Source: Diprion similis (Eukaryota; Arthropoda; Insecta; Hymenoptera; Diprionidae). Taken from it: 64,000 nt of DNA. Positions 21,001 through 64,000 of the stretch are shown in pieces (positions within the stretch are counted from its first letter, which is position 1; each line of letters opens with the position of its first letter). Location: positions 6,476,001-6,540,000 of the forward strand of contig NC_060117.1 in assembly GCF_021155765.1 (NCBI RefSeq), written 5' to 3'. A model generated the notes under the pieces. The model saw only the letters and a list, made by a program, of their open reading frames with translations, was not told the origin of the DNA and ran no database searches. A program made the position numbers and the translations under genes.

Positions 21001-24000
21001 GGAAGAGCTTCTCGGCTCAGATGTTCTCCTGATACCAGGAGCAATTTTCGGCTGAAATTTCTCCGATTCGCTTAATTCTACGTGGCTGTAGCATGTGAGC
21101 AAGCGATCACATGCTCTCTCTAGCAAACAGGCATGCAATAAAGCACACAGTATCAACGTCGCAAGCAGGCAATCAATCAGTCCCTGTTTTTGGAAGAGCT
21201 CCTTGTCTCAGATGTTCTCCTGATACCAGGAGCAATTTTCGGCTGAAATTTCTCCGATTCGCTTAATTATAGGTGGCTGTAGCATGTAAGCAAGCGATCA
21301 CATGCTCTCTCTAGCAAACAGGCATGCAATCAAGCACACAGTATCAACGTCGCAAGCAGTCAATCAATCAGTCCCTGTTTCTAGAAGAGCTCCTCGGCTC
21401 AGATGTTCTCCTGATACCAGGAGCAATTTTCGACTGAAATTTCTCCGATTCGCTTAATTCTAAGTGGCTGTAGCATGTAAGCAAGCGATCACACGCTCTC
21501 TCTAGCAAACAGGCATGCAATCAAGCACACAGTATCAACGTCGCAAGCAGTCAATCAATCAGTCCCTGTTTTTGGAAGAGCTCCTCGGCTCAGATGTTCT
21601 CCTGATACCAGGAGCAATTTTCGGCTGAAATTTCTCCGATTCGCTTAATTCTACGTGGCTGTAGCATGTGAGCAAGCGATCACATGCTCTCTCTAGCAAA
21701 CAGGCATGCAATAAAGCACACAGTATCAACGTCGCAAGCAGGCAATCAATCAGTCCCTGTTTTTGGAAGAGCTCCTTGTCTCAGATGTTCTCCTGATACC
21801 AGGAGCAATTTTCGGCTGAAATTTCTCCGATTCGCTTAATTATAGGTGGCTGTAGCATGTAAGCAAGCGATCACATGCTCTCTCTAGCAAACAGGCATGC
21901 AATCAAGCACACAGTATCAACGTCGCAAGCAGTCAATCAATCAGTCCCTGTTTTTGGAAGAGCTCCTCGGCTCAGATGTTCTCCTGATACCAGGAGCAAT
22001 TTTCGGCTGAAATTTCTCCGATTCGCTTAATTCTACGTGGCTGTAGCATGTGAGCAAGCGATCACATGCTCTCTCTAGCAAACAGGCATGCAATAAAGCA
22101 CACAGTATCAACGTCGCAAGCAGGCAATCAATCAGTCCCTGTTTTTGGAAGAGCTCCTTGTCTCAGATGTTCTCCTGATACCAGGAGCAATTTTCGGCTG
22201 AAATTTCTCCGATTCGCTTAATTATAGGTGGCTGTAGCATGTAAGCAAGCGATCACATGCTCTCTCTAGCAAACAGGCATGCAATCAAGCACACAGTATC
22301 AACGTCGCAAGCAGTCAATCAATCAGTCCCTGTTTTTAGAAGAGCTCCTCGGCTCAGATGTTCTCCTGATACCAGGAGCAATTTTCGACTGAAATTTCTC
22401 CGATTCGCTTAATTCTAAGTGGCTGTAGCATGTAAGCAAGCGATCACACGCTCTCTCTAGCAAACAGGCATGCAATCAAGCACACAGTATCAACGTCGCA
22501 AGCAGTCAATCAATCAGTCCCTGTTTTTGGAAGAGCTCCTCGGCTCAGATGTTCTCCTGATACCAGGAGCAATTTTCGGCTGAAATTTCTCCGATTCGCT
22601 TAATTCTACGTGGCTGTAGCATGTGAGCAAGCGATCACATGCTCTCTCTAGCAAACAGGCATGCAATAAAGCACACAGTATCAACGTCGCAAGCAGGCAA
22701 TCAATCAGTCCCTGTTTTTGGAAGAGCTCCTTGTCTCAGATGTTCTCCTGATACCAGGAGCAATTTTCGGCTGAAATTTCTCCGATTCGCTTAATTATAG
22801 GTGGCTGTAGCATGTAAGCAAGCGATCACATGCTCTCTCTAGCAAACAGGCATGCAATCAAGCACACAGTATCAACGTGGCAAGCAGTCAATCAATCAGT
22901 CCCTGTTTTTAGAAGAGCTCCTCGGCTCAGATGTTCTCCTGATACCAGGAGCAATTTTCGACTGAAATTTCTCCGATTCGCTTAATTCTAAGTGGCTGTA
23001 GCATGTAAGCAAGCGATCACACGCTCTCTCTAGCAAACAGGCATGCAATCAAGCACACAGTATCAACGTCGCAAGCAGTCAATCAATCAGTCCCTGTTTT
23101 TGGAAGAGCTCCTCGGCTCAGATGTTCTCCTGATACCAGGAGCAATTTTCGGCTGAAATTTCTCCGATTCGCTTAATTATAGGTGGCTGTAGCATGTAAG
23201 CAAGCGATCACATGCTCTCTCTAGCAAACAGGCATGCAATCAAGCACACAGTATCAACGTCGCAAGCAGTCAATCAATCAGTCCCTGTTTTTAGAAGAGC
23301 TCCTCGGTTCAGATGTTCTCCTGATACCAGGAGCAATTTTCGACTGAAATTTCTCCGATTCGCTCAATTCTAAGTGGCTGTAGCATGTAAGCAAGCGATC
23401 ACACGCTCTCTCTAGCAAACAGACATGCAATCAAGCACACAGTATCAACGTCGCAAGCAGTCAATCAATCAGTCCCTGTTTTTGGAAGAGCTCCTCGGCT
23501 CAGATGTTCTCCTGATACCAGGAGCAATTTTCGGCTGAAATTTCTCCGATTCGCTTAATTCTACGTGACTGTAGCATGTGAGCAAGCGATCACATGCTCT
23601 CTCTAGCAAACAGGCATGCAATAAAGCACACAGTATCAACGTCGCAAGCAGTCAATCAATCAGTCCCTGTTTTTGGAAGAGCTCCTCGTCTCAGATGTTC
23701 TCCTGATACCAGGAGCAATTTTCGGCTGAAATTTCAGCGATTCGCTTAATTCTACGTGGCTGTAGCACGTAAGCAAGCGATCACATGCTCTCTCCAGCAA
23801 ACAGGCATGCAATCAAGCACACAGTATCAACGTCGCAAGCAGTCAATCAATCAGTCCCTGTTTTTAGAAGAGCTCCTCGGCTCAGATGTTCTCCTGATAC
23901 CAGGAGCAATTTTCGACTGAAATTTCTCCGATTCGCTCAATTCTAAGTGGCTGTAGCATGTAAGCAAGCGATCACACGCTCTCTCTAGCAAACAGGCATG

Positions 24001-27000
24001 CAATCAAGCACACAGTATCAACGTCGCAAGCAGTCAATCAATCAGTCCCTGTTTTTGGAAGAGCTCCTCGGCTCAGATGTTCTCCTGATACCAGGAGCAA
24101 TTTTCGGCTGAAATTTCTCCGATTCGCTTAATTCTACGTGACTGTAGCATGTGAGCAAGCGATCACATGCTCTCTCTAGCAAACAGGCATGCAATAAAGC
24201 ACACAGTATCAACGTCGCAAGCAGTCAATCAATCAGTCCCTGTTTTTGGAAGAGCTCCTCGTCTCAGATGTTCTCCTGATACCAGGAGCAATTTTCGGCT
24301 AAAATTTCTGCGATTCGCTTAATTCTACGTGGCTGTAGCACGTAAGCAAGCGATCACATGCTCTCTCCAGCAAACAGGCATGCAATCAAGCACACAGTAT
24401 CAACGTCGCAAGCAGTCAATCAATCAGTCCCTGTTTTTGGAAGAGCTCCTCGGCTCAGATGTTTTCCTGATACCAGGAGCAATTTTCGGCTGAAATTTCT
24501 CCGATTCGCTCAATTCTACGTGACTGTAGCATGTGAGCAAGCGATCACATGCTCTCTCTAGCAAACAGGCATGCAATAAAGCACACAGTATCAACGTCGC
24601 AAGCAGTCAATCAATCAGTCCCTGTTTTTGGAAGAGCTCCTCGTCTTAGATGTTCTCCTGATACCAGGAGCAATTTTCGGCTGAAATTTCAGCGATTCGC
24701 TTAATTCTACGTGGCTGTAGCACGTAAGCAAGCGATCACATGCTCTCTCCAGCAAACAGGCATGCAATCAAGCACACAGTATCAACGTCGCAAGCAGTCA
24801 ATCAATCAGTCCCTGTTTTCAGAAGAGCTCCTCGGCTCAGATGTTCTCCTGATACCAGGAGCAATTTTCGACTGAAATTTCTCCGATTCGCTTAATTCTA
24901 AGTGGCTGTAGCATGTAAGCAAGCGATCACACGCTCTCTCTAGCAAACAGGCATGCAATCAAGCACACAGTATCAACGTCGCAAGCAGTCAATCAATCAG
25001 TCCCTGTTTTTGGAAGAGCTCCTCGGCTCAGATGTTCTCCTGATACCAGGAGCAATTTTCGGCTGAAATTTCTCCGATTCGCTTAATTCTACGTGACTGT
25101 AGCATGTGAGCAAGCGATCACATGCTCTCTCTAGCAAACAGGCATGCAATAAAGCACACAGTATCAACGTCGCAAGCAGTCAATCAATCAGTCCCTGTTT
25201 TTGGAAGAGCTCCTCGTCTCAGATGTTCTCCTGATACCAGGAGCAATTTTCGGCTGAAATTTCTGCGATTCGCTTAATTCTACGTGGCTGTAGCACGTAA
25301 GCAAGCGATCACATGCTCTCTCCAGCAAACAGGCATGCAATCAAGCACACAGTATCAACGTCGCAAGCAGTCAATCAATCAGTCCCTGTTTTTGGAAGAG
25401 CTTCTCGGCTCAGATGTTCTCCTGATACCAGGAGCAATTTTCGGCTGAAATTTCTCCGATTCGCTTAATTATAGGTGGCTGTAGCATGTAAGCAAGCGAT
25501 CACATGCTCTCTCTAGCGAACAGGCATGCAATCAAGCACACAGTATCAACGTCGCAAGCAGTCAATCAATCAGTCCCTGTTTTTAGAAGAGCTTCTCGGC
25601 TCAGATGTTCTCCTGATACCAGGAGCAATTTTCGACTGAAATTTCTCCGATTCGCTTAATTCTAAGTGGCTGTAGCATGTAAGCAAGCGATCACACGCTC
25701 TCTCTAGCAAACAGGCATGCAATCAAGCACACAGTATCAACGTCGCAAGCAGTCAATCAATCAGTCCCTGTTTTTGGAAGAGCTCCTCGGCTCAGATGTT
25801 CTCCTGATACCAGGAGCAATTTTCGGCTGAAATTTCTCCGATTCGCTTAATTCTACGTGACTGTAGCATGTGAGCAAGCGATCACATGCTCTCTCTAGCA
25901 AACAGGCATGCAATAAAGCACACAGTATCAACGTCGCAAGCAGTCAATCAATCAGTCCCTGTTTTTGGAAGAGCTCCTCGTCTCAGATGTTCTCCTGATA
26001 CCAGGAGCAATTTTCGGCTGAAATTTCAGCGATTCGCTTAATTCTACGTGGCTGTAGCACGTAAGCAAGCGATCACATGCTCTCTCCAGCAAACAGGCAT
26101 GCAATCAAGCACACAGTATCAACGTCGCAAGCAGTCAATCAATCAGTCCCTGTTTTTAGAAGAGCTCCTCGGCTCAGATGTTCTCCTGATACCAGGAGCA
26201 ATTTTCGACTGAAATTTCTCCGATTCGCTTAATTCTAAGTGGCTGTAGCATGTAAGCAAGCGATCACACGCTCTCTCTAGCAAACAGGCATGCAATCAAG
26301 CACACAGTATCAACGTCGCGAGCAGTCAATCAATCAGTCCCTGTTTTTGGAAGAGCTCCTCGGCTCAGATGTTCTCCTGATACCAGGAGCAATTTTCGGC
26401 TGAAATTTCTGCGATTCGCCTTATTCTACGTGGCTGTAGCACGTAAGCAAGCGATCACATGCTCTCTCCAGCAAACAGGCATGCAATCAAGCACACAGTA
26501 TCAACGTCGCAAGCAGTCAATCAATCAGTCCCTGTTTTTGGAAGAGCTCCTCGGCGCAGATGTTCTCCTGATACCATTAGCAATTTTCGGCTGAAATTTC
26601 TCCGATTCGCTTAATTCTACGTGACTGTAGCATGTGAGCAAGCGATCACATGCTCTCTCTAGCAAACAGGCATGCAATAAAGCACACAGTATCAACGTCG
26701 CAAGCAGTCAATCAATCAGTCCCTGTTTTTGGAAGAGCTCCTCGTCTCAGATGTTCTCCTGATACCAGGAGCAATTTTCGGCTGAAATTTCAGCGATTCG
26801 CTTAATTCTACGTGGCTGTAGCACGTAAGCAAGCGATCACATGCTCTCTCCAGCAAACGGGCATGCAATCAAGCACACAGTATCAACGTCGCAAGCAGTC
26901 AATCAATCAGTCCCTGTTTTTAGAAGAGCTCCTCGGCTCAGATGTTCTCCTGATACCAGGAGCAATTTTCGACTGAAATTTCTCCGATTCGCTTAATTCT

Positions 27001-27572
27001 AAGTGGCTGTAGCATGTAAGCAAGCGATCACACGCTCTCTCTAGCAAACAGGCATGCAATCAAGCACACAGTATCAACGTCGCAAGCAGTCAATCAATCA
27101 GTCCCTGTTTTTGGAAGAGCTCCTCGGCTCAGATGTTCTCCTGATACCAGGAGCAATTTTCGGCTGAAATTTCTCCGATTCGCTTAATTCTACGTGGCTG
27201 TAGCATGTAAGCAAGCGATCACATGCTCTCTCTAGCAAACAGGCATGCAATCAAGCACACAGTATCAACGTCGCAAGCAGTCAATCAATCAGTCCCTGTT
27301 TTTGGAAGAGCTCCTCGGCTCAGATGTTCTCCTGATACCAGGAGCAATTTTCGGCTGAAATTTCTCCGATTCGCTTAATTCTACGTGGCTGTAGCATGTA
27401 AGCAAGCGATCACATGCTCTCTCTAGCAAACAGGCATGCAATCAAGCACACAGTATCAACGTCGCAAGCAGTCAATCAATCAGTCCCTGTTTTTGGAAGA
27501 GCTCCTCGGCTCAGATGTTCTCCTGATACCAGGAGCAATTTTCGGCTGAAATTTCTTCGATTCGCTCAATTG
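12029..27572 (+). repeat. 191-bp satellite array, 81 complete monomers plus a partial one
   Basis: The phase marker AGCTCCTCGG lies at 12,220, and its last copy lies at 27,500. The distance, 15,280, is exactly 80 x 191, and every intermediate unit I checked falls on the same 191 grid. Monomers carry blocks such as CTCAGATGTTCTCCTGATAC, GGCTGAAATTTCTCCGATTC, GTCAATCAATCAGTCCCTG and AAGCACACAGTATCAACGTC. Diagnostic changes sort the inner monomers into types A (GTGACTGTAGCATGTGAGC, AATAAAGC), B (TCGTCTCAG, CAGCGATTC, CACGTAAGC, CTCTCCAGC) and C (CGACTGAAA, CTAAGTGGC, CACACGCTC), plus a D type (TATAGGTGGC). These are mostly ordered A-B-C. The edge monomers at 12,029-12,790 are more diverged. No coding function is supported. 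Confidence 0.98.
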
Positions 27573-27599
27573 TAAGTGGGAGTTTTTATACGACCCACC

Positions 27600-42355: not shown

Positions 42356-45116
42356 TTAATGGCCTTTTGCTGGTCCAGAAGCTCGTTGATCTTCCATGCG
42401 ACCGGCTTGCAGTCTCTGAATGAGGGCAAACAGATCTTCTTCGGGCACGGTAGTCCTTGATGTTGTGTTTCCGTTTCTTCTTTGGTTTTGTTCCTCCTCT
42501 GCATCGTGTAATGTTGAAGCAGCTGGCAAAGGACTACGTTGATCCTCTAAACGTGAGCCTTGGCATCGCACTAGCATTTCAATGAATGAATCGTCAGCTT
42601 CCTGCCCAATTGGTTGTGGAGGAGGCCTATTCGTATTTCTGTTCGTATTCAATCCGGGCAAGCAAGGCAGAGTAACACGCTGCTCATCCATTCGCTTACT
42701 TTGCATTCCAGCTATTAGTTCCAACAAATCTTCTCCTTCTTTCTCTTTTTGTTCTGGAGTCGCTGCTCTTGGTCTCGGTCTCGGTTTCTGATTGGCATTT
42801 AGCACACAGCGCTGATCATCCATTCGGCCTGATTGAAATCTTGATAGAAGTTCGAAAAAAGATTCTTCTTCTTCTTCTTGCGAAGGTTGTGGCGCGATTC
42901 CAGCTCTAGCAGGCAGAGGCTCACCCATATCTTTTTGCTTACCATCCGGGGTTAACTGGATAAAAAATTAGATAATGAATTACAATATTTCAGATTGTAT
43001 ACATGATGGATAAAGGGAAAATTCATCAATTTTCAGTCGATAATACACGTTCATCAACGTCTTTGTTTTCTAAAATGTGTAAGCATTGTAACATGCGCTG
43101 AATCTGAAGGTACCAGGTTTTAAGATCATTGAGGTTTTAAGACAGTTATTGTAGATTACCAGACTCTTCGAACATTGTATTGTTTACTGAAAATTGATAG
43201 TTTTACTTCTATCTAGTTTATCTACAGATTAATACACAATAATCTTTTTCAAAGAAGACAATATTACCGGTTCGATGGTCCTTGTAAATAACTATATGCA
43301 AGGAAATACCGAATAATTACAATAAATTCGGTGATTCAAGAACAATTTGTAGTCTAGTGATACGTTAAACAAAAACATTCCATCGCTCACCTTGATCAGA
43401 TCCAGATTGTCCATGCTCTGTCTTCTCAACCTGTATCTACCTGGCGAAGAAGCGGCTATAGCCGAAGCTTTGGTCGTTGGAATTAAATGCATTCCGTTTC
43501 CACTTTCTGCTTCTCCGTCGCCTTTTTCTAAGCCTAAAAGTTTCTTGAGATCGGTAACGTTCATCTGAGCCGTAGCCTGACCCATTGGATCGTTTAATTC
43601 TTTAGAAATGTTCAAATGCAGACTGGCAAAGTGCAGTGCTTTCTCATGGTTAGCCATAGCTGAGTAAGCATTTCCCAATGACCAACAGGCTCGACCTTCT
43701 CCGACTCGATCCATCAGCTGTTGCGCAATGGAAAGATGACGGAGGTGATAGTCTACGGCAGCCTGGTAATCGCGGAGAAGCGTGTAAGTATTACCAAGGG
43801 AATAACACGCTTGTGCTTCTACCGCTCGGTCACGCAATTCTTGAGCAAGGACCAGCGTACGTCTGTGAAAATTTTTTGAATTGTAATTATTTTAGCATCC
43901 AATGATGGTATAACAAAATTTCAAAGTACTTTGAGCTTCAGCCTGCTGATAACTTACTTGTAATGTTGTGCTGCTTTTTCAAATTCCCCAAGAAATATGT
44001 GCGAGTTGCCCAAATTACTGTTGGCTCTTCTCTCCGCAGCTTTATCACCAAACTCTCTTGCAATTTTTAATCTTTCATTGTGGTAATGAATCGCTTGTTG
44101 AAAATCACCCAGCAAGTAAAATGTGTTTCCCAAATTTCCACATGCCCTCCCTTGTGCAGCTGTATCGCTCAACTCTCTCATCAGCTTCAAATTTTCTCTA
44201 GAAAATCACAATTATTTGATCAGGTAATTAGATAATAAAAGTTTGAAACTACTGTAATGCATAGGTTTCAAACAAAAAATATTAAAGAGTTGTGGTATCA
44301 AGTATATATATAATATTACTGAATTCGAAGAGAAGGTATTCTATATGTGCAAAAGTAACATACTCGTAGTAATGAACAGCTTCCTGAAGACACTGTCTAA
44401 CGTCCTCAGGAAATTCTCCTGGATCTTGTTGTCCGACTCTGCCAATTTGTTTACCCTTTGCGTGATAAACATTTCCGAGATTGTAAAGAGCTCGACCTTC
44501 GCTGAGCTGATTAATAAAGAACGCTTGATTAAAAATGCGAATGCATGAGGATAAAAGTGTGGAACAGAGGTGAATAAAACAAATTACCTTATCGCCAAGT
44601 TCTCTTGATATTTCTAAATGCCTTTTGCAGCATATCGTAGCTTCGTCAAACTTTCCCATAACTTTCAGAGTATTTCCAAGATTTCCACTTGATTTAGCCT
44701 CCCCTAACTTATCTCCCATAGTTCTTGCCAATGTTAAATCATGGTTGTGATACTGCATGGCTTTGACGTAATCACCAAGATAAAAGTAAGCATTTCCAAG
44801 CTGGCTGTAGATCGCGCTCAACGTTCTTAAGTCGTCCGTTCCAGCCTGTATCGCTGCTTGAAAGAATGCAACACCTGTGCGACAATCACCTTCCTTGCAA
44901 AGACGCTCGCCTTCAAGGGCCAATTCCAAACACATGTTGCTATCTCCTCCGCTGTTCTGTAAATGGAAAAATCGTTTTATGTCTAGATATATGGATGGCG
45001 TATCGTTCTATGATTGGAAAAAATTGGATTCAGAGTTGTTTTGGCTAGATCAACGTAACGAGACGAAGTAGACGAGCGAGATTAATTTTAATTACTATTA
45101 GAAACGAGTGAATATA

Positions 45117-46646: not shown

Positions 46647-46805
46647 GACGGCCACACATCAGGTGCAGCCCGTGAAAAACGGTAATAACTAATTAACTTC
46701 TTTTTTCTTCGTGACTCTACTATTCATTAAATGCCGATTATACAGAGATTAAGATTTCGGTTATCTGTGATAGACTGAATTTTTCTACCTATTTCTTCAT
46801 CGCTG

Positions 46806-49800
46806 CTACGAAAATATCTTTGCAAAAGTTAACAAAAGTACGAATATTAAATAAAATTTGGTCGTTGTGACATTTGAGCCTTTTGATAGGGCAGTCGATG
46901 TCTTAAGGGTTTCCTTTAGCGTAGCCCAAAACTTCATTCGCTCCTCAAAGAAAGAATGCCGAACGTTGAGCTCCACTTCAGGCCCGTTTCCAATTTGAAG
47001 ATAGTTGTTCTCAGCAGCCGAGTATGGTTTCCATATTGTGCCGTTGGGAGCCAAGGTTGTCGGTGTTCTGAAAAATCAATCGTTTAACATACTTGTCTAA
47101 TGAGTTAAGTAAAATAATAATAATTTGTTGTTGCGTAATAGTTTACCCATTGGTTGCAAAGGAGGTCCACAACTGAACCATGATGTCTACGATTTCCAAA
47201 TCTTTTTTGGTCGTGCTTTTATTAAAATTTCGTCCGGCAAACTGCAACTCAGGGTCAAAGATGTAGAAAGTATCGTCACCGTGAGTTACACCCAAATCTG
47301 CGGTTGTGTTGTAATCAAGGTAAGTGTTGCTAAAAGTGCCATGATAACTGAAAGTGTAGAAGTACTGCGGGTTCTTCGCAACAGAATGTTGCTGTAGAAG
47401 TGCATCGTAGGCTGGATATCGAAACATGCCATCGCCGATGGCGTGCGTAGTGTTGACGAGTATCTGCGGATGGATCAAATCATCGTAGAGGATCCATAAT
47501 ATAATATTGTATATAGAGATTTAGCACGTAGATGAATACACTCAATTAAACCGTAAGAATTATGGTTTTGTGACGTATAAGAGAGTTTCGAGATTGAATG
47601 TTTCATTATTTCATGAGCCCATGTTGAGTTAAAAGTATAAACATAGTTATCAAGCATCAAATTCATTTTTGCAATCCATTTTAGTTTACCGAAACAAAAA
47701 TGATTAGAAAACATCTAAAATGATGACATGAGCATATTTTTACGGGAAATTGAAAAAATTCAAAATCACAAAAATATCGAATACCCTAATATACATGGAG
47801 TCTACGGCTTCGTGTTTCTATTGATGCCTGAGGGTCTGGGGAATATACAATACTGAACTTGAGCAGCGATGTACTTTTGATCGACGTTCGTTTGCAAATA
47901 CGGCTATTTCACTACTGGCTGGCTTGAATAACCACATGAGAATCTGAAGTAGCTATTCCTCTCGACTAGGGACTAAAAGCCCAGAACCCCGGGTTAGTTT
48001 GTTTTGCCTAATGTCACAGCAAGCACAAGTTTCTTGATTTTTTGAAATTACTTACGACACTTGTGTTGGTGGTCAGATCGTTGTTCAAGTAATATGACTT
48101 TATACCATTAACGTAAGCAGTTCCGTTGTCCGGTTGGTATGTCAAGCTAATAATGCGAGGCAAGACAAAGTCATAATTCTCCAGGAAATCTCGAAACAGT
48201 TCTTCATTTATGAACAAACCTACAGGTGAACCCAACCAGGAGAAATATGATTTTGGAATAAAAAATTATGTAAGTCTAGGTTTCAAATATTCTTCTCAGA
48301 TCAAGAAAAACAAAACGATGGATCGATCACATGGTGAACGAAATTTGGAAGAGTGCTGATATCAATTGTGCGTAACTCGGTTGTCAGAGGTCACGAAAAG
48401 GAATCTGATTATACATTGAAAACAATGATTTCCCGGTATTGGTCCATCGTTTTCACCTTTCCATTTCGATTTTTACAATCACTACGACAATATGAATGGT
48501 ACGATCTTGATATCCAGTCTGCCACGTTCGATTCGACATGCTCTAATTTTCAGAATTTCTAAGCCCGTTTTTTTCTTGGAATTGAAAGCTTCAATAGACG
48601 TAAATTTTACCTGCAGTGTAGAAGGTTCCTTCATCTCGGGCAACACCGGAAATCCAAGGCAGGTCACGCATTTTTCCAGCAGCAAAAAGGTTCGTGGGAC
48701 TGTCGGTTAGTACTGCGCCTTCGACGTCCGGCTCATCGGTAGGGCCCCATATCAGCGCTGGATATATGTGCCACTCAAAAAACAACGGTTCCGTGGCGAT
48801 AATGTCAGCGAAGTCAATGGTTCGCAGGCAGTCGATTAGACTTTCCGATGTTTCGTTGAAACACCCGACGTACTCGCCAAGTTGAAAAGCGCGGTTCGCG
48901 TAAGCAGCTCTCGGTAAGTAAGCCGACGGTGAGAGAGCTGATCCACTCTTCGTGATATATTTATGAAAAAGCCCTGAGTCAACCCACAGATTGGTTATGA
49001 TAGATGCTTGTTATTATAGCTATGCTTTAGATTCAATTCATACCAGGTTATTTCGTTGAAATTTTAGGCGGGCAATTCAGCACAAGCTAAAATCCGCCTG
49101 GATTTATGCAGTTCTGTGTACATTTGATAGAAATCCGCCTCAGTAAAGTGTGCCCTGAATTGCATAACTTCAGGCGGATTTACCCTGTGTTAAATTGCCT
49201 ACGTAGTACTTTCACGTAATAAAACGTCGTGCAAAAGAGTGAATTCCATTAAAAAATACGTAAGATTTCCAGGAAATTAGAAACGAATTGCAGTTACTTG
49301 TAGTTTGCCGACAAATAGAGTGTAGAATCCTGTGGAATTATAGAAACTTGTCCACTAAAGAAAAATCGAACGGATCTACAAATAATATCTACTTCTATTT
49401 CGCATGTAACATTATTGTATTTTTATATATTGCAATGATAAGCTTTGGTGTTTTACCAATTGTTGCGTCTGACAGTGTCAACATATGCACACACACACTG
49501 CCTGAACTCGATCCAATGAGTGTGACTCGATCAGGATCACCGCCAAAGTACTTTATGTTGTTTTGAACCCACTTCAGTGCCAAGACCTGATCCTTGAGTC
49601 CCCAATTTCCTGATGCCACCTCGTCACCGGTGCTCAAAAATCCAAGTGGACCAATACGATGACTGGGAAGAACCAGTACTATATCTGCATCAAGTAAGTA
49701 TTCCGGGCCGTATCTATCAGATCTAGCATTTCCAGTCCTGAAACCTCCTCCGAAAAGATACACCATCACTGGAAGTAACGCCGAGTTCGTGCTCTCCGGA

Positions 49801-50980
49801 AGCTGCATTTGTACACACAGAAATCAGTAGGGAACATGAATAGTGTATCCCGATTGCGACGCGAAGGCAGCAAATACACGACCTGCGATCGCCAACTACT
49901 GGCCCGAGTCAGATACAGTCACACACGATATCGCTTTACGAGTTGAGCATTCTTTTCTTTACCCTCCATAAACAAAAGAATAAAGTGGCGGGGCTTTGCG
50001 TGGTATTGTTGCGGGACGTGATTCGTCAATATCTTTTTCCTAATGACGAAAGTGAAGCAATCGTGGACTGCGCATACGCAAAACTATCTTTACAACACTG
50101 AGATGAAATTGGCCACTTTTGTCCCGCTAAGCTGCTACGCAAGGCCCCATTTTCCATGCACGTGTGATAAGAGAATTATATCTTGCTACCCTACCAATTG
50201 CTTGTAATACTAAGAATAAATCAGTGGAGGCAATTCAGCCGCAAGCATGCAATTAATGAATTTGAAAATGAATTTCACGTGCAGAACGGTAGAAATTTTG
50301 AAGATTCGGATAACCGTAAAACTATATGATCAAACTATTTTAGCTCTAATTTTATCTGGGATGATATATTTATAGTGCTGAATAAAACGCGAGATGTGAA
50401 TTGATTTGAAAATTATTCGCCAAAAGTTTTTCCTACAGAGTCTGAACGAAAGTGGATAAAGTATCTGAATCACCTGCGGTGTGTATAAATTCAGCCACAA
50501 GCAGTCTTCATCGCCCAAGACGATATCCCCTGAGGCTTGAGGGCACATGCTCAAGTCTACGGTAGGGTTGCGAGATCCATTCCAGCCATCTGCAGCCACG
50601 GGATTTGCAAATCTGTCGTGCAAAGTTTTCTCAACTTTTGTAATCGGTTGGGGCAAAATATTAAAGAGAAGAACAGCGAAAATAAAAAATGAAAGAGAGA
50701 AGTGAGTGATTTATGCAACAGTTGCATCACGCAAAATTGTCTGCCTTGTATTGATATTGTACCTGAGATTCCCAATTGGTGGTTGTCCATAAGGAATTCC
50801 CAAGAAAGCAGAAATATTACGATTATGATTGGTTGTTCGAATTATTCCTTGCAGGGTTCCTTGAGGAATCGTCACCACCGGAGCGGCGATATCTTTTGCC
50901 TGGACGTGATTTATCGAACAAATACTGATCGTGAGTGAAAATAGTAAGAGTACACATTTTATCGAGCAGTGAAAGAACAT
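46806..50980 (-). CDS. Secreted or GPI-anchored carboxylesterase, copy 1
   Basis: Seven exons (50980-50763, 50612-50474, 49802-49457, 48973-48611, 48219-48056, 47463-47147, 47067-46806) give 602 residues. The alpha/beta-hydrolase (COesterase) family hydrolyses carboxylic esters. Insect members include detoxifying, pheromone and juvenile hormone esterases; which applies here is unknown. Seen: a signal peptide (hydrophobic CVLLLFSLTISICSI); GIPYGQPPIGNLRF; EDCLWLNLY; VMVYLFGGGF at the oxyanion hole, where HGGGF is usual; the nucleophile Ser at about 218 in GSSSG, where GESAG is usual; the acid Glu at about 349 in ARDEGTFY; and His at about 471 in GVTHGDDTFY. The triad is complete. The C-terminus (TTKFYLIFVLLLTFAKIFS) is a short hydrophobic tail that may be a GPI-attachment signal. 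The next copy lies 4.2 kb upstream in tandem. Confidence 0.94.
49065..49201. repeat. Inverted-repeat element in intron 3 of esterase copy 1
   Basis: The left part has TAGGCGGGCAATTCAG, AAATCCGCCTGGATTTATGC. The right part has GCATAACTTCAGGCGGATTT and AAATTGCCTACG. Arms of about 50 bases surround a loop of some 35 bases. A degraded relative is present at the same intron position in copy 2 (about 57,123-57,205), mostly the left arm. Confidence 0.85.
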
Positions 50981-53128
50981 CGTGACGACGGGTTGGTGTG
51001 TGATCAGGGTAACCTGAGGACTGGTGAAATCGCAAATCTTATTATTGTAGGGATAAACAAGTGCTACGTATACAATTTGCCTACTTACTGTATAGGTCTT
51101 GGTGTTAAAATGGATTATGCTTTCTCTATCTTCACTGCCGCTTCATTATCTTATTTCATGGTAACTGTTTTTGAATCAAATTAATATTACACAGGCGGTT
51201 GGGTTAATTTATAGTCTATGAGGGTCAGATAATATCTATATAATATATGTGCACGATCAGATGTGAATATTACCACACAAAAATTACTACTTTACTGATG
51301 GATTAATTATACACAGTAAATTTGTGTATGCAGTTTACGCGCAACCCGTAGGGTATTCAGTGAAATTACATTAAAATCCAAGGATCACAGGTGATTTTTA
51401 GTTTCTGTATTAAAGAGTGTTGTCAGATTGTGACGAAAAATTACGAGGAGTGATCACCTTAAGTCTCAGACTATTATTTAAACAAGAGAGAAATATATGA
51501 CGTGCGATTGTCACACGCGTCGCATATCTATACAGTTGCGTGAAATATAACAGCTGTACAAAGGAGACGACTTAAGGTTGATCCACACTATATGGCACGG
51601 AGCCAAAATCGATCAGAAAATAGTATATTACGCACCTAGGGAGGGAAGTAGGCTATTCCAAACTGCGTGCAAGGTTGACACTCGAGCCGAAGATGAGGGT
51701 GGCAAGAACGCAATTTGGAACAACCTTTTTCACTCAAGTATGAGGTATACCATTTTTCACCACCCCCTGCATCGGAAAGTTGTACTTTCCGTACAAGTAT
51801 GGTAAAAAATATATTCCAAACGTAAAATCGTGGAAGGCATTGTACGTAATGAGCCACTCGAAGTATAGCGATACTGGATATCAGGAAAATGTCGGAAGAA
51901 ACAGTCAGGTAACAGAAAGTACTCGTTAATATTAAGACATTGTGTCTTGCTATTCGATACGTTTTTGCAACTTCTTGTTTTCGTCTTCGACTAGAATTGA
52001 GGTTATGAAAGCTAGTTCATCGGCACTCCACGTCTGGTTCATTACTACTGCTGAACGTTAACTGATGGATAATTGCAAGTGTAGTTCAACCTTTATTCTC
52101 TTGACGCTCAAGGTGTGCAACACGAGGTCAACAAACGAACTTTTCGGCGAACGCCGCTCATAATCGCAGACTTTCGCAAACATATGTGCTGCGCTGGCGC
52201 GTGGCAAGTTCGACATTGAAACATGCGTTATTTAATCTAACAAGTGTCAAACTAGAAATATTGATTCTGTTATTGTTGCCTCAAAACCATTATTTTTATC
52301 ACTTACGTTTTCAGCTTTGAATCTATGGTCTAGTCGAAAAGCACCTTTTTACGATTTTCAGTTAGAGATCTCCTGAAAATATGGTTTAGGTGTAGTTCGA
52401 TTCGGAATCGCGTCTAGAATCTTTTCATTTATCAATTATTCTCTACGATAAATTAAGCACCATTAACAGGCACTTCTATTTCAATTTGCATCCGTTGTTT
52501 ACAAAGATTATTTTTATATATTATCTGATATGATATTAATCCAATTTTAACGATACTTAATATAACTTTTAGGAATTTAAGTATTATTTCAAGTAACATA
52601 CAATTTTCAAGTAACCTTTTAATTCCAGCTTCAAATCAGTGAAGTGTATCTTTTATTAAATTGTAGAAACACCTGCCTGTTTATATAACAGGCCTGAAAT
52701 AATTCTAACCATAACTTTCAGATATTAAGTATTAAATGAAGTATAGTTAGTATTAAACAAATTGACAAATCGAAGCAATTCATTGTACTACTTATTAATT
52801 GTAGAATCAGTAACCAATAAATCCGTGTATATTATAAAATGATTAAACATAAGTGTCAGAAAAAAAAACCATTCCATGTTCTCTCACCAACTGCTGCGGA
52901 TTGAGTTTCGGTGACATTTCTAGGGATATTGCATTTTCACTGAAATAGTACATAATTGGGCGGGTTTCGTCGCGTGAGATGAAAGCACGAGAAATGAGAA
53001 TTCTCGCACAAAGTACATAATAGCCCCCCAGGTTATACCTTCTCATTCACGTAATGATTTGACCGTTTCGAAAGTGTCTTGACGATAGCCGATATCACCT
53101 CAGTTAGTTTAGAGAAATCGGACTCACC

Positions 53129-55044: not shown

Positions 55045-58000
55045 GTGTGCCCGTGAAAAACATTAATAACTAATTAACTTGATCTTTCGTCGTGACTCTA
55101 CTATTTATTTAATGCCGATTATACAGAGATTCGTATTTTGGTTGTCTGTAATAGACTGAATTTTTCTACCTATTTCTTCATCGCTGCTACAAAAACATCT
55201 TTGAAAAAGTTAAGAAAAGTACGAATATTGAATAAAATTTGGTCGTTGTGACAAATGAGCCTTTTGATAGGGCAGTCGAGGTCTTAAAGGTTTCCTTTAG
55301 CGTAGCCCAAAACTGCATTCGCTCCTCAAAGAAAGAATACCGAACGTTGAGCTCCACTTCAGGCCCGTTTCCAATTTGAAGATAGTTGTTCTCAGCAGCC
55401 GAGTATGGTTTCCATATTGTGCCATTAAGTGCCAAAGTCGTCGGAGTTCTGAAAAATCAACTGTTTAACATACTTGTCTAATGAGTTGAGTAAAATAATG
55501 ATAATTTGTTGTTTAGTAATAGTTTACCCATTGGTCACAAAGGAGGTCCACAACTGAACCATGATGTCGACCATTTCTAAATCTTTTTTGGATGTGGTTT
55601 TGTTGATATTTAGTCCGGCAAACTGTAACTCAGGTGCAAATATGTAAAAGGTATCGTCACCGTGAGCTACACCCAAATTTTTCGTTGTATTGTGATAAAA
55701 GTAAGAGTTGGTGAAAGTGCCCTCATAATTGAAAGTGTAGAAGTACTGTGGATTCTTTGCCAGAGAATGTTGCTGTAGAAGTGCATCGTAGGCCGGATAT
55801 CGATACATGCCGTCGCCGAAGGCATGCGTGATGTTAGCGAGTATCTGTGGATGGGTGAAATCATCGAAAAGGATCCAAAATACTGTAATATATATATATA
55901 TTACAAAGATATCTCGCTACTGCCACCGCCGCTGCCGTGTCAAAAATTCGTGATTTAACCCTTTACCCTATAGATATACCCTTATGGCTATAAAGATTTG
56001 ACACGTAGTTAACATAACACTCGATTATAAATATCCATAATCCCCGATTAGATTGTTTTGCCTAATATTACAGTGAGCAAGTGTTTCTTGATTTTTTGGG
56101 ATTACTTACGACGCTTGTGTTGGTGGTCAGATCGTTGTTCAAGTAATATGACTTTATACCATTAACGTAAGCAGTTCCGTTGTCTGGTTGGTATGTCAAG
56201 CCAACAATGCGAGGCAAGGCAAAGTCATAATTCTCCAGGAAATCTCGAAACAGTTCTTCATTTAGGAAGAAACCTACAGGTAAACCCAACCAGGAGAAAT
56301 ATGATTTTGGACCAAAAAATAATGTAAGTCTAGGTTTCAAATATTCTTCTCAGATCAAGAAAAACAAAACGATGGATCGATCACATGGCGAACGAAATTT
56401 GGAAGAGGGCTGATATCAATTGTGCGTAACTCGGTTTTCAGAGGTCACGAAAAGGAATCTGATTATACAATGAAAACAATGATTTCCCGGTATTGGTCCA
56501 TCGTTTCCAACTTTCGATTTCGATTTTTTCAAGCACTACGACAATATGAATGGTACGATCTTGATATCCAGTCTGCCACGTTCGATTCGACATGCTCTAA
56601 TTTTCAGAATTTCGAAATCGACTTTTTTTTTGTAATTTGTAGCCCCCAAGGGACATAATTTTTACCTCCACTGTGCATGGTTCCTTCGTCGCGGACAACA
56701 CCCGAAATCCAAGGCAGGTCACGAATTTTTCCAGCAGCAAAAAGATTCGTGGGACTGTCGGTTAGTACTGCGCCTTCGACATCCAGCTCGTCGGTCGGGC
56801 CCCATACGTCGTTTGGATATGCGTGCCACTCAAAAAACAACGGTTGCGTGGCGATAATGTCAGCAAAGTCAATGGTTCGCAAGCAATTGATTAGAGATTC
56901 CGACGTTTCGTTGAAACACCCGACGTACTCGCCAAGTTGAAAAGCGCGGTTCGCAGAAGCAGCTCTGGGTTTGTAAGCCCACGGTGTGAGAGCTGATCCA
57001 CTCTTCGTTATATATTTGTGAAAAAGCCCTGAGTCAACCCACAGATTGATTATGTTAGGTGACTGTTAGCATAATAGCTATGCGTTAGATTCAATTCATA
57101 CCAGATTATTTCATTGAAATGTTAAGCGGGTGATTTCGTACAAGCTAAAATCCGTCTAGATTGATGCAGTTTGGGGTACTTTTTAGAGAAATCCGCTTGC
57201 ATTTGAGTAATCAAGAGCACATTTTATCGATCAATATGTCTCGTTGTTCACGATTGTCATGATATGTAGCATTTTCGAAAAATGAAACGTCGTGGATCAA
57301 AATGAATTCCACTAAAAAAATACGTGAGATTTTCAGGAAACTAGAAACGTCTGTCGACAAATAGAGTACAGAAACCTGTGGAATTATTCCGACCTTGTAT
57401 ACTAAAGAAAAATCCAACGAATCTATGAAGAGTATCTACTTCTGTTTCGTATGTAACATTGGTGTATTCTTATTTATTGTAATGATAAGATTCGTTGTTT
57501 TACCAATTGTTGCATCTGACAGCGTCAAAATATGCACGGACACACCGCCTGAACTCGCTCCCGCTAATGTGACTCGATCAGGATCGCCGCCAAAGTACTT
57601 TATGTTGTTTTGAACCCACTTCAGTGCCAAGACCTGATCCTTGAGTCCCCAATTTCCTGAGGCCACCTCGTCACCGGTGCTCAAAAATCCAAGTGGACCA
57701 ATACGATGACTGGGAAGAACCAGTACTATATCTGCATCAAGTAAGTATTCCGGGCCGTATCTATCAGATCTAGCATTTCCAGTCATGAAACCTCCTCCGT
57801 AAATATACACCATCACTGGAAGTAACGCCGAGGTCGTGTTCTCCGGAAGCTGAATTGTACACACGGAATTTAGGAGGGATTATAAATATTGATTCTGATT
57901 ACAATCTTACGTCAAAGTCTCATTTTCCATGCACGTGCGATGGAAAGAATTATATCTTGCTACTCCACCAATCACATGTATTTTTGACAAGTAACTTGTG

Positions 58001-59075
58001 AATGAATTCTGAGTTCGCAAATTATCAAGCACTATAATTATATTACATCATCACTGATGAAATTAGAGCTGGAATAGTTTAATCATTACAGTTTTATGGT
58101 TATCCGAATCTTGAAACTTTCTACCATTTTAGACGTGAAATTCCTGATAGAGTTCATTAATCGCGTGCTTGCGGCTGAATTGCCTCCACGGATTTATTGT
58201 TCGTGTTATGTTACTTACAGAGTCTAAATGAAAGTGGTTAAAGTGTCTGAATCACCTGCGGTGTATATAAATTTAGCCACAAGCAGTCTTCATCGCCCAC
58301 AACAATGTCCCACGAGTTTTGAGGGCACATACTCAAATCCACGGTAGCGTTGCGAGATCCATTCCAGCCATCTGCAGCCACGGGATTTGCAAATCTGTCG
58401 TGCAAAGTTTCCTCATTTTTCGTAATCGGTTAAGGCACATTAATTATTACAGAGAAAAATAGCGAAGATATAAAATGAAAGAGAGAAATGAGTGAGCGAA
58501 AAATTGTCTGCCTTGTATTGATATTGTACCTGAGATTCCCAATTGGTGGTTGTCCATACGGAATTCCCAAGAACGCAGAAACATTACGATTATGATTAGT
58601 TGTTCGAATTATTCCTTGCAGGGTTCCTTGAGGAATCGTCACCACCGGAGCGGCGATATCTATTGTCTGTACGTGATTTATCGAACAAATACTGATTGCA
58701 AATAAAAATGGTACGAGTACACATTTCGCCGAGCAGTGGCAGAACATCGTGGCCCCGCGTTGGTGTGCGACCAGGGTAATCGGACGACTGGTGGAATTGC
58801 AAATCTTATTCTTGTAGGGGTAAATCCTCATGTTCAAATGGATTGTGCTTTCATTGCAGTATCTCTACTGGCACTCCATTACCTCATTTTATGGTATCTG
58901 TTCTCGAATTATATGACGTGAGAAGAAAGAGGAATGATTACTTGGAGACTCAGACTCTTATTTAAACAAGAAAGTCATATATTGTGACGTGCGGTTGTCA
59001 CACACACGTTGGACATCTACAGTTGTGTGAAATATGATAGTTGTACAAAGGCAACGACTTAAGGTTGATCGACAG
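55045..59075. repeat. Esterase duplication unit, right copy
   Basis: The direct repeat of 46,668-51,590 in the same orientation. Exon positions, intron phases and exon lengths (218, 139, 346, 363, 164, 317, 262) are identical in both copies. The intron 4 and intron 5 flanks are also nearly identical. Confidence 0.85.
55187..58747 (-). CDS. Secreted or GPI-anchored carboxylesterase, copy 2
   Basis: Seven exons (58747-58530, 58394-58256, 57849-57504, 57028-56666, 56273-56110, 55844-55528, 55448-55187) give 602 residues, the same as copy 1. It keeps the signal peptide, GIPYGQPPIGNLRF, the acid Glu in VRDEGTMHS and the catalytic His in GVAHGDDTFYIF. Differences from copy 1 sit at functional sites: YGGGF in place of FGGGF at the oxyanion hole and GASSG in place of GSSSG at the nucleophile elbow. 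The hydrophobic C-terminal tail is kept (TTKFYSIFVLFLTFSKMFL). The start at 58,747 was chosen by alignment with copy 1; 30 further codons are open upstream. Substrate unknown; the open frame and intact triad argue that it is functional. Confidence 0.94.
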
Positions 59076-59935
59076 TAAGGTGACTGTAAATGCTTCCGAA
59101 AATTTACAGAAATATGATATGGCAAAATGAAACGCGATCTTATTTTCGGGACCTTAATCTGAAAAGATGCTTCGATTCCCCTATAGGCATTGTTATGACT
59201 TATGATATCACACTTTGTCTACAAAATGGTTGATGGTACGAACGTTAAGATTATTAACCTGATATTCAAGGTATTATATTTTTTATGACAGTCTTGAAAA
59301 TCAACATATATAATAGCTGTATTTGCCCAACGGCAACGATAATCACCTTAATGTCGGCTCGACATGAATTATGTTCCACGAAAAATAGATACGAGTTTAC
59401 AATGTTTTTTAATCTGCGAATGATAGTTTCTGCCAATCAAGACTGCGTATACTTTATCATTCGTTTATTGTCAAATGTTCAGTATAGGCTTAAGACGTGG
59501 CGAGATTGTACTCATAATAATTATTTACGTACGTGTAATTTGGAACTGCACATATTACCACGTAGCGAAGATAATTCGACATCAGCAATACCTCTATGAC
59601 AATGATTTAATTTTTCACTTATCCTTGGCTCGCGTCTTTTGAGTTACCTATGAATGCAAATTCGTTACACAAATTTTATTCAACGATACAACGATCCAAC
59701 GAATTTTCAAATACACCCTGTAATCGATTCACAGGACGCAGGGACCCGAAAAGCGTGACGCAGCTCAACTAAACATCTAATTCAATGAATTTGCAGATTA
59801 CAGTGGCAGCCGCCAATAGCAGTGCGGAGCTCCCGCGATCGCTGGGAAATAGAACGCGGCTGCAATTTCATGTTCCGACAACTGTTGACTTTTGGGAAAA
59901 CCTGTTGACCGACTACTGTCTTTTGTTTGACAACA
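59076..59935. promoter_or_regulatory. Gap: region between the esterase 2 unit and the SAMTOR homologue
   Basis: 860 bases holding no recognised gene. An open frame at 59,285-59,599 has no family resemblance. The last 200 bases are less AT-rich (GCAGCCGCCAATAGCAGTGC near 59,805) and probably include the SAMTOR promoter and 5' UTR. Confidence 0.4.
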
Positions 59936-62900
59936 ATGGCTTCGACCGAGCATAAGGAGTTGGCTGCATTCATAAAGAGTGTTCATAGCAATTTACGAAA
60001 AGAATCGCAAATTTATGGCCCAGAAGCCGCTTGGAGAAGACATGTGGCTGAAAGTGAAACATTGCAGTTTAGGGTTGTAACGTTTCAACCCTTTGATTAT
60101 TATTGTTAGCATGCGAAAAATGATGAGAAATCTTATTTCAGAAATATGCGAAGGCAATGCAAAAGCTAGCAACGAAACACTGGGCGGAGAACGTAGCGGA
60201 TCCAAAGAAAAATACGAAATGTAGAATAGACTGGGTGAAGTCACAATGTTGGGAATATTTTTTCAGGGGTGGTACAGAATTGTTTTGGGACAGAGAGGTG
60301 AATATTAATCGGAAAATAGCGAACGATCAACGTATCAGCGGAATATCAACATATCAAGAATACCCAAATTCTGAAAACGGTAAAACCGGTCTCTCAAACG
60401 AAAGGAAGAAGTTGATTTCGGAAGACTGATTGATTTGTTCAAATTCAAAATTGACGTCAGTGGATGACAAAGATACACCAGATCGGAAACAAAGTCTCAA
60501 TGAGCATTCTACTATGAAGCAAAATACAAAATTTGAGAAAAGCATTGAAAACAATTTGCAAATAAGTAACAATGAGCGCGATTCGAGCACCGCACAAGTT
60601 CTGCACAGGGAAGGTTCGAAAGTAAAGTTGCTGGACGTGGAAAGTTGTTACAACCCCTTTGTCGATGTAAATTTTTCTAATGTCACTGCTATTGATCTGG
60701 CTTCATCTTGCAAAGGAGTATTGCAATGCGACTTTCTGAGAATGCAAATAGGACAGGAAAATATATATTCTGCCGACAAGCAGCAAGTTGAATAACTGAC
60801 TGTGGAATCTTTTGACACAATTGTGTTCTGCTTGTTGCTAGAATATTTACCATCTCCTGAGCAGAGATACGCTTGTTGCAAAAAGGTTTACAATTTGTTG
60901 GGAAGTGGTTGCTTATTGTCGATCATAACTCCAGATTCAAAGCATGTTGGCGCTAATGCGAGATTCATGAAATCCTTGCGCTATGTTTTGTCGAGTCTTG
61001 AGTTCATGCGAACAAAGTATGAAAAATTGCCTCATGCTCACTGCCTGGCTTTTAGAAAGTGCTTTTATAAAATAGTCCGGTGGCTACCGACATTTTTCAA
61101 TGTGTTATTTGATAAAGCTTGGTTCATCTTTTTATCTGTTTTAATAATATAGCCTATCAACAAAATCCACTGCTGCCACCTCGATCGCGGGACAACGCTT
61201 ATCAGCAGCTTATCAATGTTGTTTAAAAAAACGAGTAAATGACAAACATCATAAAAGCTGAAACTTTACCTATCGTTTAATGACATATCAGTTAGAAAAA
61301 AAATCACCCACTGCCACCTGTATCGTAGAACGATGTACTCCTGCCATCGACATAATGATGTGAAAAAAAAAAAAAAAAATGACAAATGATAAAAGCTGAA
61401 TTTTTTTTTACCGGTAGTTTATTAATAGCGAAGGCATAAAAACTTATGCTGCCAGCTATTTGTCGGAACCTGGCTTCGGCAGGAGGTTGTGAAGTTGTTG
61501 TTGAATAAGTGACACACAGTACAGGAACAACTCCGAAGACATCCCAAAAAAATATTTTTCATCTATTTTCTCTTATTTCTTTCGATAAATGATTTTACAA
61601 AAACATTATAAAAATATTGATACGTATAAAAATATTTATAAGTATGGAAATATTGATTTAAGGGAAGGGTAAGGTTTTTAAATCCGAAAAAAAGGCACAT
61701 TTTCATGATTTTTTTTTGCGCTGATATGAGTAATATTGTTTTATTCACTTTATATATATATATTATAATATAACTTCTGAAGTATATTAGAAAAAATTTT
61801 CAATAACAAATATTGATAAATATGCCCGTGACGGCGGATCTAAGGAGGCGCCTTGAAAAAAAAAAGTTATTTTGCGGTGAACATGATAACTCGTTACCGG
61901 ATCATCTGAAACAAAAGAATCGATATGCGTTTTAAAGGTGATACATTTTCCCAGGTAATCACGGCGAGCTTTTTTTCCGTTAAATTTTTTTCTATTTTTT
62001 AGTAACAAATTCACCGAGATTTTTTTAGCTAAAATCGCGTCTTTCACTTCCAAATGCTGCAAAGAATCGAAAAAAATTAATAAAAAAAAGCTCGCCACGA
62101 TTACCTGGGAAAACATATTACCTTTAAAACGCATATCGATTTTTTTGTCTCAGATGATCCGGTAACGAGTTGTCATGTTAACCGCAAAATAACTTTTTTT
62201 TTCAAGGCGCCTCCGGAGATCCGCCGTCACGGGCATATTTAGCAATATTTGTTATTGAAAATTTTTTCTAATATACTTCAGAAGTTATACTATAATATAT
62301 ATATATAAAGTGAATAAAACAATATTACTCATATCAGCGCAAAAAAAAAATCATGAAAATGTGCCTTTTTTTCGGATTTAAAAACCTTACCCTTCCCTTA
62401 AATCAATATTTCCATACTTATAAATATTTTTATACGTATCAATATTTTTATAATGTTTTTGTAAAATCATTTATCGAAAGAAATAAGAGAAAATAGATGA
62501 AAAATATTTTTTTGGGATGTCTTCGGAGTTGTTCCTGTACTGTGTGTCACTTATTCAACAACAACTTCACAACCTCCTGCCGAGGCCAGGTTCCGACAAA
62601 TAGCTGGCAGCATAAGTTTTTATGCCTTCTCAATTAATAAACTACCGGTAAAAAAAAATTCAGCTTTTATCATTTGTCATTTTTTTTTTTTTTCTCTCAC
62701 ATCATTATGTCGATGGCAGGAGTACATCGTTATACGATACAGGTGGCAGTGGGTGATTTTTTTCTAACTCATATGTCATTAAACGATAGGTAAAGTTTCA
62801 GCTTTTATCATGTTTGTCATTTACTCGTTTTTTTAAACAACATTGATAAGTTGTTGATAAGCGTTGTCCCGCTGCGCTGGTGCGGCGGCAGGAGTTGATT

Positions 62901-63182
62901 TTATGTCAAGAAGGCGTTTATATGACACGAAAACAATGAAATTATTCTTTATCAAATGTGTCACAAAAAAATGTCGGTAGCCCCCGGACTAAAAGAGTCG
63001 CTACCAGATGGGCAATTTTGCAAAAATTTCCACAAGACGACGAACTCTTTCATTCCGATACTAAGATCTTTATACCACAGGATTTTACCACATGGATTAG
63101 GGAAGAGACAGTTGAGTGTGTTTCAGGTGATAAGAAAGCCGATGTTAATTTTTATAATGAATTGCCACATGCAAAGCAATAA
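59936..63182 (+). pseudogene. Samtor: SAMTOR/BMT2 homologue with an in-frame stop (pseudogene or damaged allele)
   Basis: Model: 59936-60073, 60142-60379, 60461-61058, 63008-63182, 383 codons, in frame apart from one stop. SAMTOR binds S-adenosylmethionine and inhibits mTORC1 through GATOR1-KICSTOR when methionine is scarce. Homologous blocks: KYAKAMQKLATKHWAE, KVKLLDVESCYNPF, ATSIDL-like TAIDLASS, QCDFLRMQIGQ, FDTIVFCLLLEYLPSPEQRY, LLSIITPDSKH, KYEKLPHAHCLAFRK and IFIPQDF. Lesions: TAA at 60,793-60,795 inside QQVE*LTVESFD, which no plausible intron removes; and Glu instead of Gly in the SAM-binding motif (DVESC for DVGSC). An in-frame TGA at 60,427 can be removed by an 81-base intron (60,380-60,460, GTAAAA...GTCAG). 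The last intron consists almost wholly of a 1.9-kb palindromic element. The exon 1 donor (AGG|GTTGTA) is uncertain. Identity is firm; loss of function is inferred. Confidence 0.8.
61075..62989. repeat. 1.9-kb TA-flanked foldback element in SAMTOR
   Basis: It begins GTCCGGTGGCTACCGACA and ends TGTCGGTAGCCCCCGGAC, with TA at 61,073-61,074 and 62,990-62,991. The arms are about 950 bases and pair almost to the centre near 62,032, for example CCAGGTAATCACGGCGAGC (~61,953) with GCTCGCCACGATTACCTGG (~62,091), and GGCAGGAGTACATCG-type sequence near 61,330/62,715. It encodes no transposase; open frames inside it are mirrored by-products. The TA flanks fit a Tc1/mariner-like mobilisation. Confidence 0.95.
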
Positions 63183-63638: not shown

Positions 63639-63725
63639 ATGTCGTCCCATCTAAACTGGATGATCGTCCGCAACAACAATGCGTTTCTGTTGAAAAAGCG
63701 CAACATCAGCAAGCTCTTCTCTACG
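63639..63725 (+). CDS. RpL28: Ribosomal protein L28 (eL28), first coding exon
   Basis: An exon of 29 codons from the ATG at 63,639 to a GTAAGT donor at 63,726, phase 0. It encodes [20 protein letters not shown], then RNISKLFST. The start MS(S/A)HLQWM(I/V)xRNxxxFLxK...FSTEPNN is diagnostic of eL28 of the large cytosolic ribosomal subunit. The family is about 135-145 residues; the remaining exons lie beyond the right edge. The exon is preceded by a strong acceptor, so the leader is interrupted by an intron. Confidence 0.93.
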
Positions 63726-64000
63726 GTAAGTTGAGCTTACCAGTTCGCGTATACCGTAAGAGAATAATAGACAATTCGACAAATCTTTAAGCAATGCACA
63801 GAACTCAATTGGATAATATGCACATTTTAATTAGTTAGAATCAGCAGATTTCACGATTCAAATCTGTAAGGTTATATTCCGCCACGTTACTTCTCGCAAG
63901 CCTTTACATCCCAAGGAATCACATGCAGTGCCCTATTTTATCTGTGTAATTAATTTTATGTATGAAGTTATGCTGTGTCTATCTGCAATATGGAGCGAAC

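Follow-up and report, generated by a model that had tools for sequence, protein, structure and literature searches.

An unprocessed SAMTOR pseudogene in a tandem segmental duplication of Diprion similis, with an intact copy downstream

The DNA analysed here (the window) is a stretch of 64,000 nucleotides of Diprion similis contig NC_060117.1 (C13), positions 6,476,001 to 6,540,000; coordinates are relative to its first base unless a contig is named. Its right-hand end carries a damaged copy of SAMTOR within the first of two units of a tandem segmental duplication, the second of which lies past the window end. The features of this region are as follows:

54710 to approximately 64318 (about 318 bases beyond the window end), no strand assigned: upstream duplication unit, from self-comparison
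55049..58864, minus strand: carboxylesterase gene of the upstream unit (Pfam COesterase, E-value 2.7e-49, from the open frame at 57439-57879)
59936..60067, plus strand: exon 1 of the damaged SAMTOR copy, 44 codons with an ATG start; 132 bases aligned with exon 1 of the intact copy, with 2 differences
60068..60069, plus strand: lost 5' splice donor of the damaged SAMTOR, TT where the aligned intact copy has GT
60142..61072, plus strand: first part of damaged SAMTOR exon 2, 94% identical to the intact copy, with one TGA and one TAA
60427..60429, plus strand: in-frame stop TGA, in the same exon-2 frame as the TAA
60640..60642, plus strand: codon of the DVGSC glycine, changed to Glu (GAA); the intact copy and four aligned PDB sequences have Gly
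60793..60795, plus strand: in-frame stop TAA in the exon-2 frame
61073..62991, no strand assigned: foldback-type mobile element within the SAMTOR coding sequence, 1,919 bases with inverted arms
62992..63182, plus strand: remainder of the SAMTOR C-terminal coding sequence, including the target-site repeat AAA, 94% identical over query residues 310-371
63639..64000, continuing to approximately 64318, plus strand: duplicated RpL28 5' end, covering exon 1 and some of intron 1, from alignment
68394 to 77707 (window-based numbering): downstream duplication unit, from self-comparison

The two units were delimited by comparing positions 28001-104000 (the window from 28001 on and the next 40 kb) with themselves, keeping only matches longer than 100 bases; they consist of blocks that are 86-94% identical, with flanks common to both over approximately 9.6 kb. 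The part compared, from 28001 on, lies beyond a satellite array at 12032-27579, which has a 191-base unit present in approximately 81 copies with 95% matches. Each unit carries a carboxylesterase gene on the minus strand, a SAMTOR copy and RpL28 exon 1. Three tandem carboxylesterase copies are found on the minus strand (46668-51590, 55049-58864 and approximately 69340-73638, window-based), with blocks that are 78-90% alike; the one at 46668-51590 is more distant and has no SAMTOR beside it. The window also encodes, on the minus strand at 42359-45007, GoLoco motifs together with tetratricopeptide repeats, which we take to be the make-up of a Pins/LGN gene.

At the right end of the upstream unit, RpL28 exon 1 is followed by GTAAGT as in the downstream copy, and similarity ends inside intron 1. 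In a sensitive search, the approximately 4 kb that come next had no match in the 26 kb following the downstream unit. We assign the exon at 63639 to RpL28 by its place before an L28e exon and by the known start of the protein; by themselves, its 28 residues matched no Pfam family. By L28e family search and alignment, RpL28 exon 2 turned up next to the downstream unit alone, with none beside the upstream one. Of the three matches from the family search, the one on C13 contains RpL28 exon 2, whereas the other two are neighbours on C11 and are presumably Mak16. A second full RpL28 was not found in this search. Because RpL28 exon 2 is retained there, the downstream unit is probably the parent.

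The SAMTOR copy in the window carries four disabling lesions: the donor change, the TGA, the TAA and the insertion. The 74-base SAMTOR intron and its flanks are present in both copies, and retention of this intron in the window copy rules out a retrocopy. If translation is continued across the unspliced intron 1 of the damaged copy, it reaches a stop after 57 residues. Exon 2, whose first base is 60142, takes in the interval of the original prediction (60142-61058) and contains both stop codons, one of which (the TAA) had been noticed in the original prediction together with the Gly-to-Glu change in DVGSC and the retained Asp of TAIDL. All three are present: the intact copy reads CAA and GGA where the window copy has TAA and GAA, and the Asp is kept in the window frame. 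The TAA does lie in a conserved stretch, as had been proposed, but the residue at that position is itself variable, differing among the intact copy and the PDB chains 7vkq_A and 9o5d_A. The further statement, that the frame is otherwise in good condition, is not borne out: there is an earlier TGA at 60427-60429, the donor site (60068) reads TT, and the 1,919-base insertion interrupts the last part of the coding sequence. At the position of the intact copy's stop codon the window copy has no stop, and its frame closes two codons on, at 63182. An open frame with the SAM-motif glycine is absent from this copy (two stops, with Glu at the DVGSC glycine). As judged from these lesions in its sequence, the window copy is unable to encode the full SAMTOR protein.

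The insertion is a foldback element that consists of one long inverted repeat, with arms that are 90% alike over their whole length and termini that read TAGTCCGG...CCGGACTA. It is bordered on each side by AAA, and the intact SAMTOR has a single AAAA run at this place. The end of the first arm has at least 20 matches in the genome, so the element is repetitive; two of these are its own arms, and relatives lie on several contigs.

An intact SAMTOR lies at C13:6550514-6551832, approximately 14.6 kb farther along this contig; the window, which ends at C13:6540000, stops short of it. Its coding sequence starts with an ATG and is split by a 74-base GT...AG intron into a first exon of 44 codons and a second one; it encodes 414 residues with no stop and with DVGSC kept. 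The gene matches Pfam Bmt2 (PF11968), and with exon 2 as the query, four distinct PDB sequences of SAMTOR were hit (best E-value: 6.8e-52); the open frame, DVGSC, the Asp in TAIDL and the SAMTOR match are found together in the downstream copy. When the whole 269-Mb genome was searched with the Bmt2 profile, two matches were obtained, both on C13: the window copy with an internal stop and the downstream copy without one. In 14 control genomes the Bmt2, L28e and C12orf66_like families had 0 matches each, from which we conclude nothing. A genome search with the intact exon-2 protein returned four places: the query's own locus, the window copy in two pieces on either side of the insertion, and one chance-level match (E-value: 5.98). 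With 681 bases of DNA from the 5' region of SAMTOR as the query, two places were returned. No further SAMTOR copies were found among the best candidates scored in the genome protein search and the 681-base DNA search. As an intact SAMTOR is present 14.6 kb downstream, there is no sign that the protein has been lost from the animal, and loss of the only SAMTOR is ruled out by this copy on the same contig. The original prediction of SAMTOR decay therefore holds for the sequence in the window, while the loss of the sensor that it proposed (recent, allelic or a sequence error) is not supported. It had named an intact, expressed paralogue together with Glu at this site in functional relatives as evidence that would count against it. 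The first part is matched by this 414-residue copy, which is intact and presumably expressed; the second is not, as Gly occupies the site in the intact copy and in all four aligned PDB sequences.

The coding sequences of the two SAMTOR copies differ at 38 of 1,062 aligned bases, with 19 missense, 2 stop and 17 silent differences; codon 355 was omitted from this count as it spans the edge of the foldback element. The share of differences that change the protein is 21/38, or 0.55. A share of 0.55-0.59 is expected if the window copy is neutral and the other evolves at an omega of 0.05-0.1, compared with 0.10-0.21 if both copies are at an omega of 0.05-0.1 and 0.41-0.44 if both are at 0.3. If both copies were fully neutral, 70% or 72% of the differences should be changing ones; a binomial test against these shares gives p = 0.05 or 0.03. 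A plain Nei-Gojobori dN/dS, which takes both branches together and comes from the comparison that counts codon 355 as a change, is 0.32. The 21 protein-changing differences out of 38 would fit an unconstrained copy beside a constrained one, although the statistics alone also allow mild constraint on both. Some past constraint on the window copy is possible because 0.41-0.44 is near 0.55 when there are only 38 differences.

The missense codons were also compared by eye on printed alignments with chains 7vkq_A and 9o5d_A, which we take to be human and fly SAMTOR, respectively, and 14 of them were comparable. In half of these (codons 211, 232, 235, 293, 301, 323 and 331) the intact copy agrees with both chains and the window copy alone differs. 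The intact copy matches one of the two chains at codons 223 and 304, the damaged copy and not the intact one matches 9o5d_A at codon 291, and the remaining four are variable. The balance of changing and silent differences given above indicates that the downstream copy is constrained. Divergence between the copies is uneven, falling from 11-15% at 59209-59648 to nil at 60099-60248. Specifically, positions 60069-60326 form a run of 258 bases, intron included, without a difference, a length reached in 0 of 5000 shuffles. The patchy divergence and the identical run suggest gene conversion between the copies, although conserved sequence may contribute to the pattern.

Based on these results, the window SAMTOR is an unprocessed duplicated pseudogene; it should be annotated as a pseudogene and the downstream copy as the gene. 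We put a probability of roughly 93% on this reading, together with the following account of its origin. A tandem duplication would have copied a unit that comprised SAMTOR, a carboxylesterase gene and the RpL28 5' end. The SAMTOR of the downstream unit is intact and would have stayed under selection, and the upstream copy, presumably because it was redundant, would have decayed through loss of the donor site, two stops, insertion of the mobile element and missense changes, among them the Gly-to-Glu change in DVGSC. The order of the duplication and the lesions is likewise our inference.

It is quite unlikely that the second copy is a false duplication in the assembly, with two alleles of one locus set in tandem and the window holding a null allele. 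The copies are indeed in tandem and in part nearly identical, as in the 258-base run, but against this stand the 11-15% divergence in the flank at 59209-59648 and the divergence of approximately 10% over the esterase block, a region that also has a third and more distant copy. The end of the upstream match in RpL28 intron 1, with its approximately 4 kb of unmatched sequence, argues against it as well. The nearly unchanged 5' region of the damaged copy could mean that it is transcribed, giving a regulatory RNA or a short N-terminal fragment, and that it undergoes gene conversion with the working copy; we consider this very unlikely. There is hardly any likelihood that SAMTOR function has been or is being lost because the downstream copy is dead or silent too: its frame is open over 414 residues, its intron has GT...AG sites, the conserved residues are present, and its differences from the window copy point to constraint. 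Just as improbable is a functional second copy that only seems broken through sequencing or base-calling errors. Each stop could be explained by a single-base change, but four separate lesions rule out a single error, and it would take too many errors to produce two stops, a lost donor, a 1.9-kb insertion flanked by a repeated target site, and 19 missense and 17 silent differences.

As an unprocessed duplicated pseudogene, the window copy resembles those known from tandem segmental duplications in that the intron and flanks are kept, an intact parent lies nearby, several independent disabling lesions are present and the pattern of differences may reflect relaxed constraint. It differs from them in nothing essential, the additional features here being the foldback interruption and the patchy divergence. 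It resembles the SAMTOR family (BMT2/C7orf60, PF11968) in being 94% identical to an intact neighbour that matches Bmt2, and differs from it in having no capacity for the full protein. A claimed gene loss is hereby corrected: a window that ends before the parent makes an ordinary duplicated pseudogene resemble the loss of a nutrient sensor. Judged by title, no paper with a SAMTOR pseudogene as its subject was found.

We assume, as did the original prediction, that substitution of the DVGSC glycine (human G172) abolishes SAM binding. No paper was found for SAMTOR G172A, and Gly172 was absent among the matches listed for SAMTOR / S-adenosylmethionine sensor. The C12orf66_like family (PF09404), which we take to be the family of a KICSTOR subunit, gave three matches over the cut-off at C14:11903272-11904394, two of which have an internal stop, perhaps owing to an intron or to decay. 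Published work is relevant to how the intact copy might act. A passage of one report states that SAMTOR mutants lacking SAM binding do not relay methionine sufficiency, and specifies no residue there (PMC7431653). In flies, SAMTOR is described in part of another report as substantially truncated, as not interacting with fly GATOR1 or GATOR2 and as lying outside the fly TORC1 pathway (PMC10957897), whereas an excerpt of a third counts it among the negative regulators of TORC1 (PMC10253371). To judge from these portions of the two reports, which conflict, methionine sensing by insect SAMTOR is disputed (PMC10957897, PMC10253371). The same part of the former report gives the KICSTOR complex as absent in flies (PMC10957897); since matches to a KICSTOR-subunit family are present here, the intact Diprion similis copy would be a suitable gene for asking whether SAMTOR acts as a SAM sensor beyond the vertebrates.
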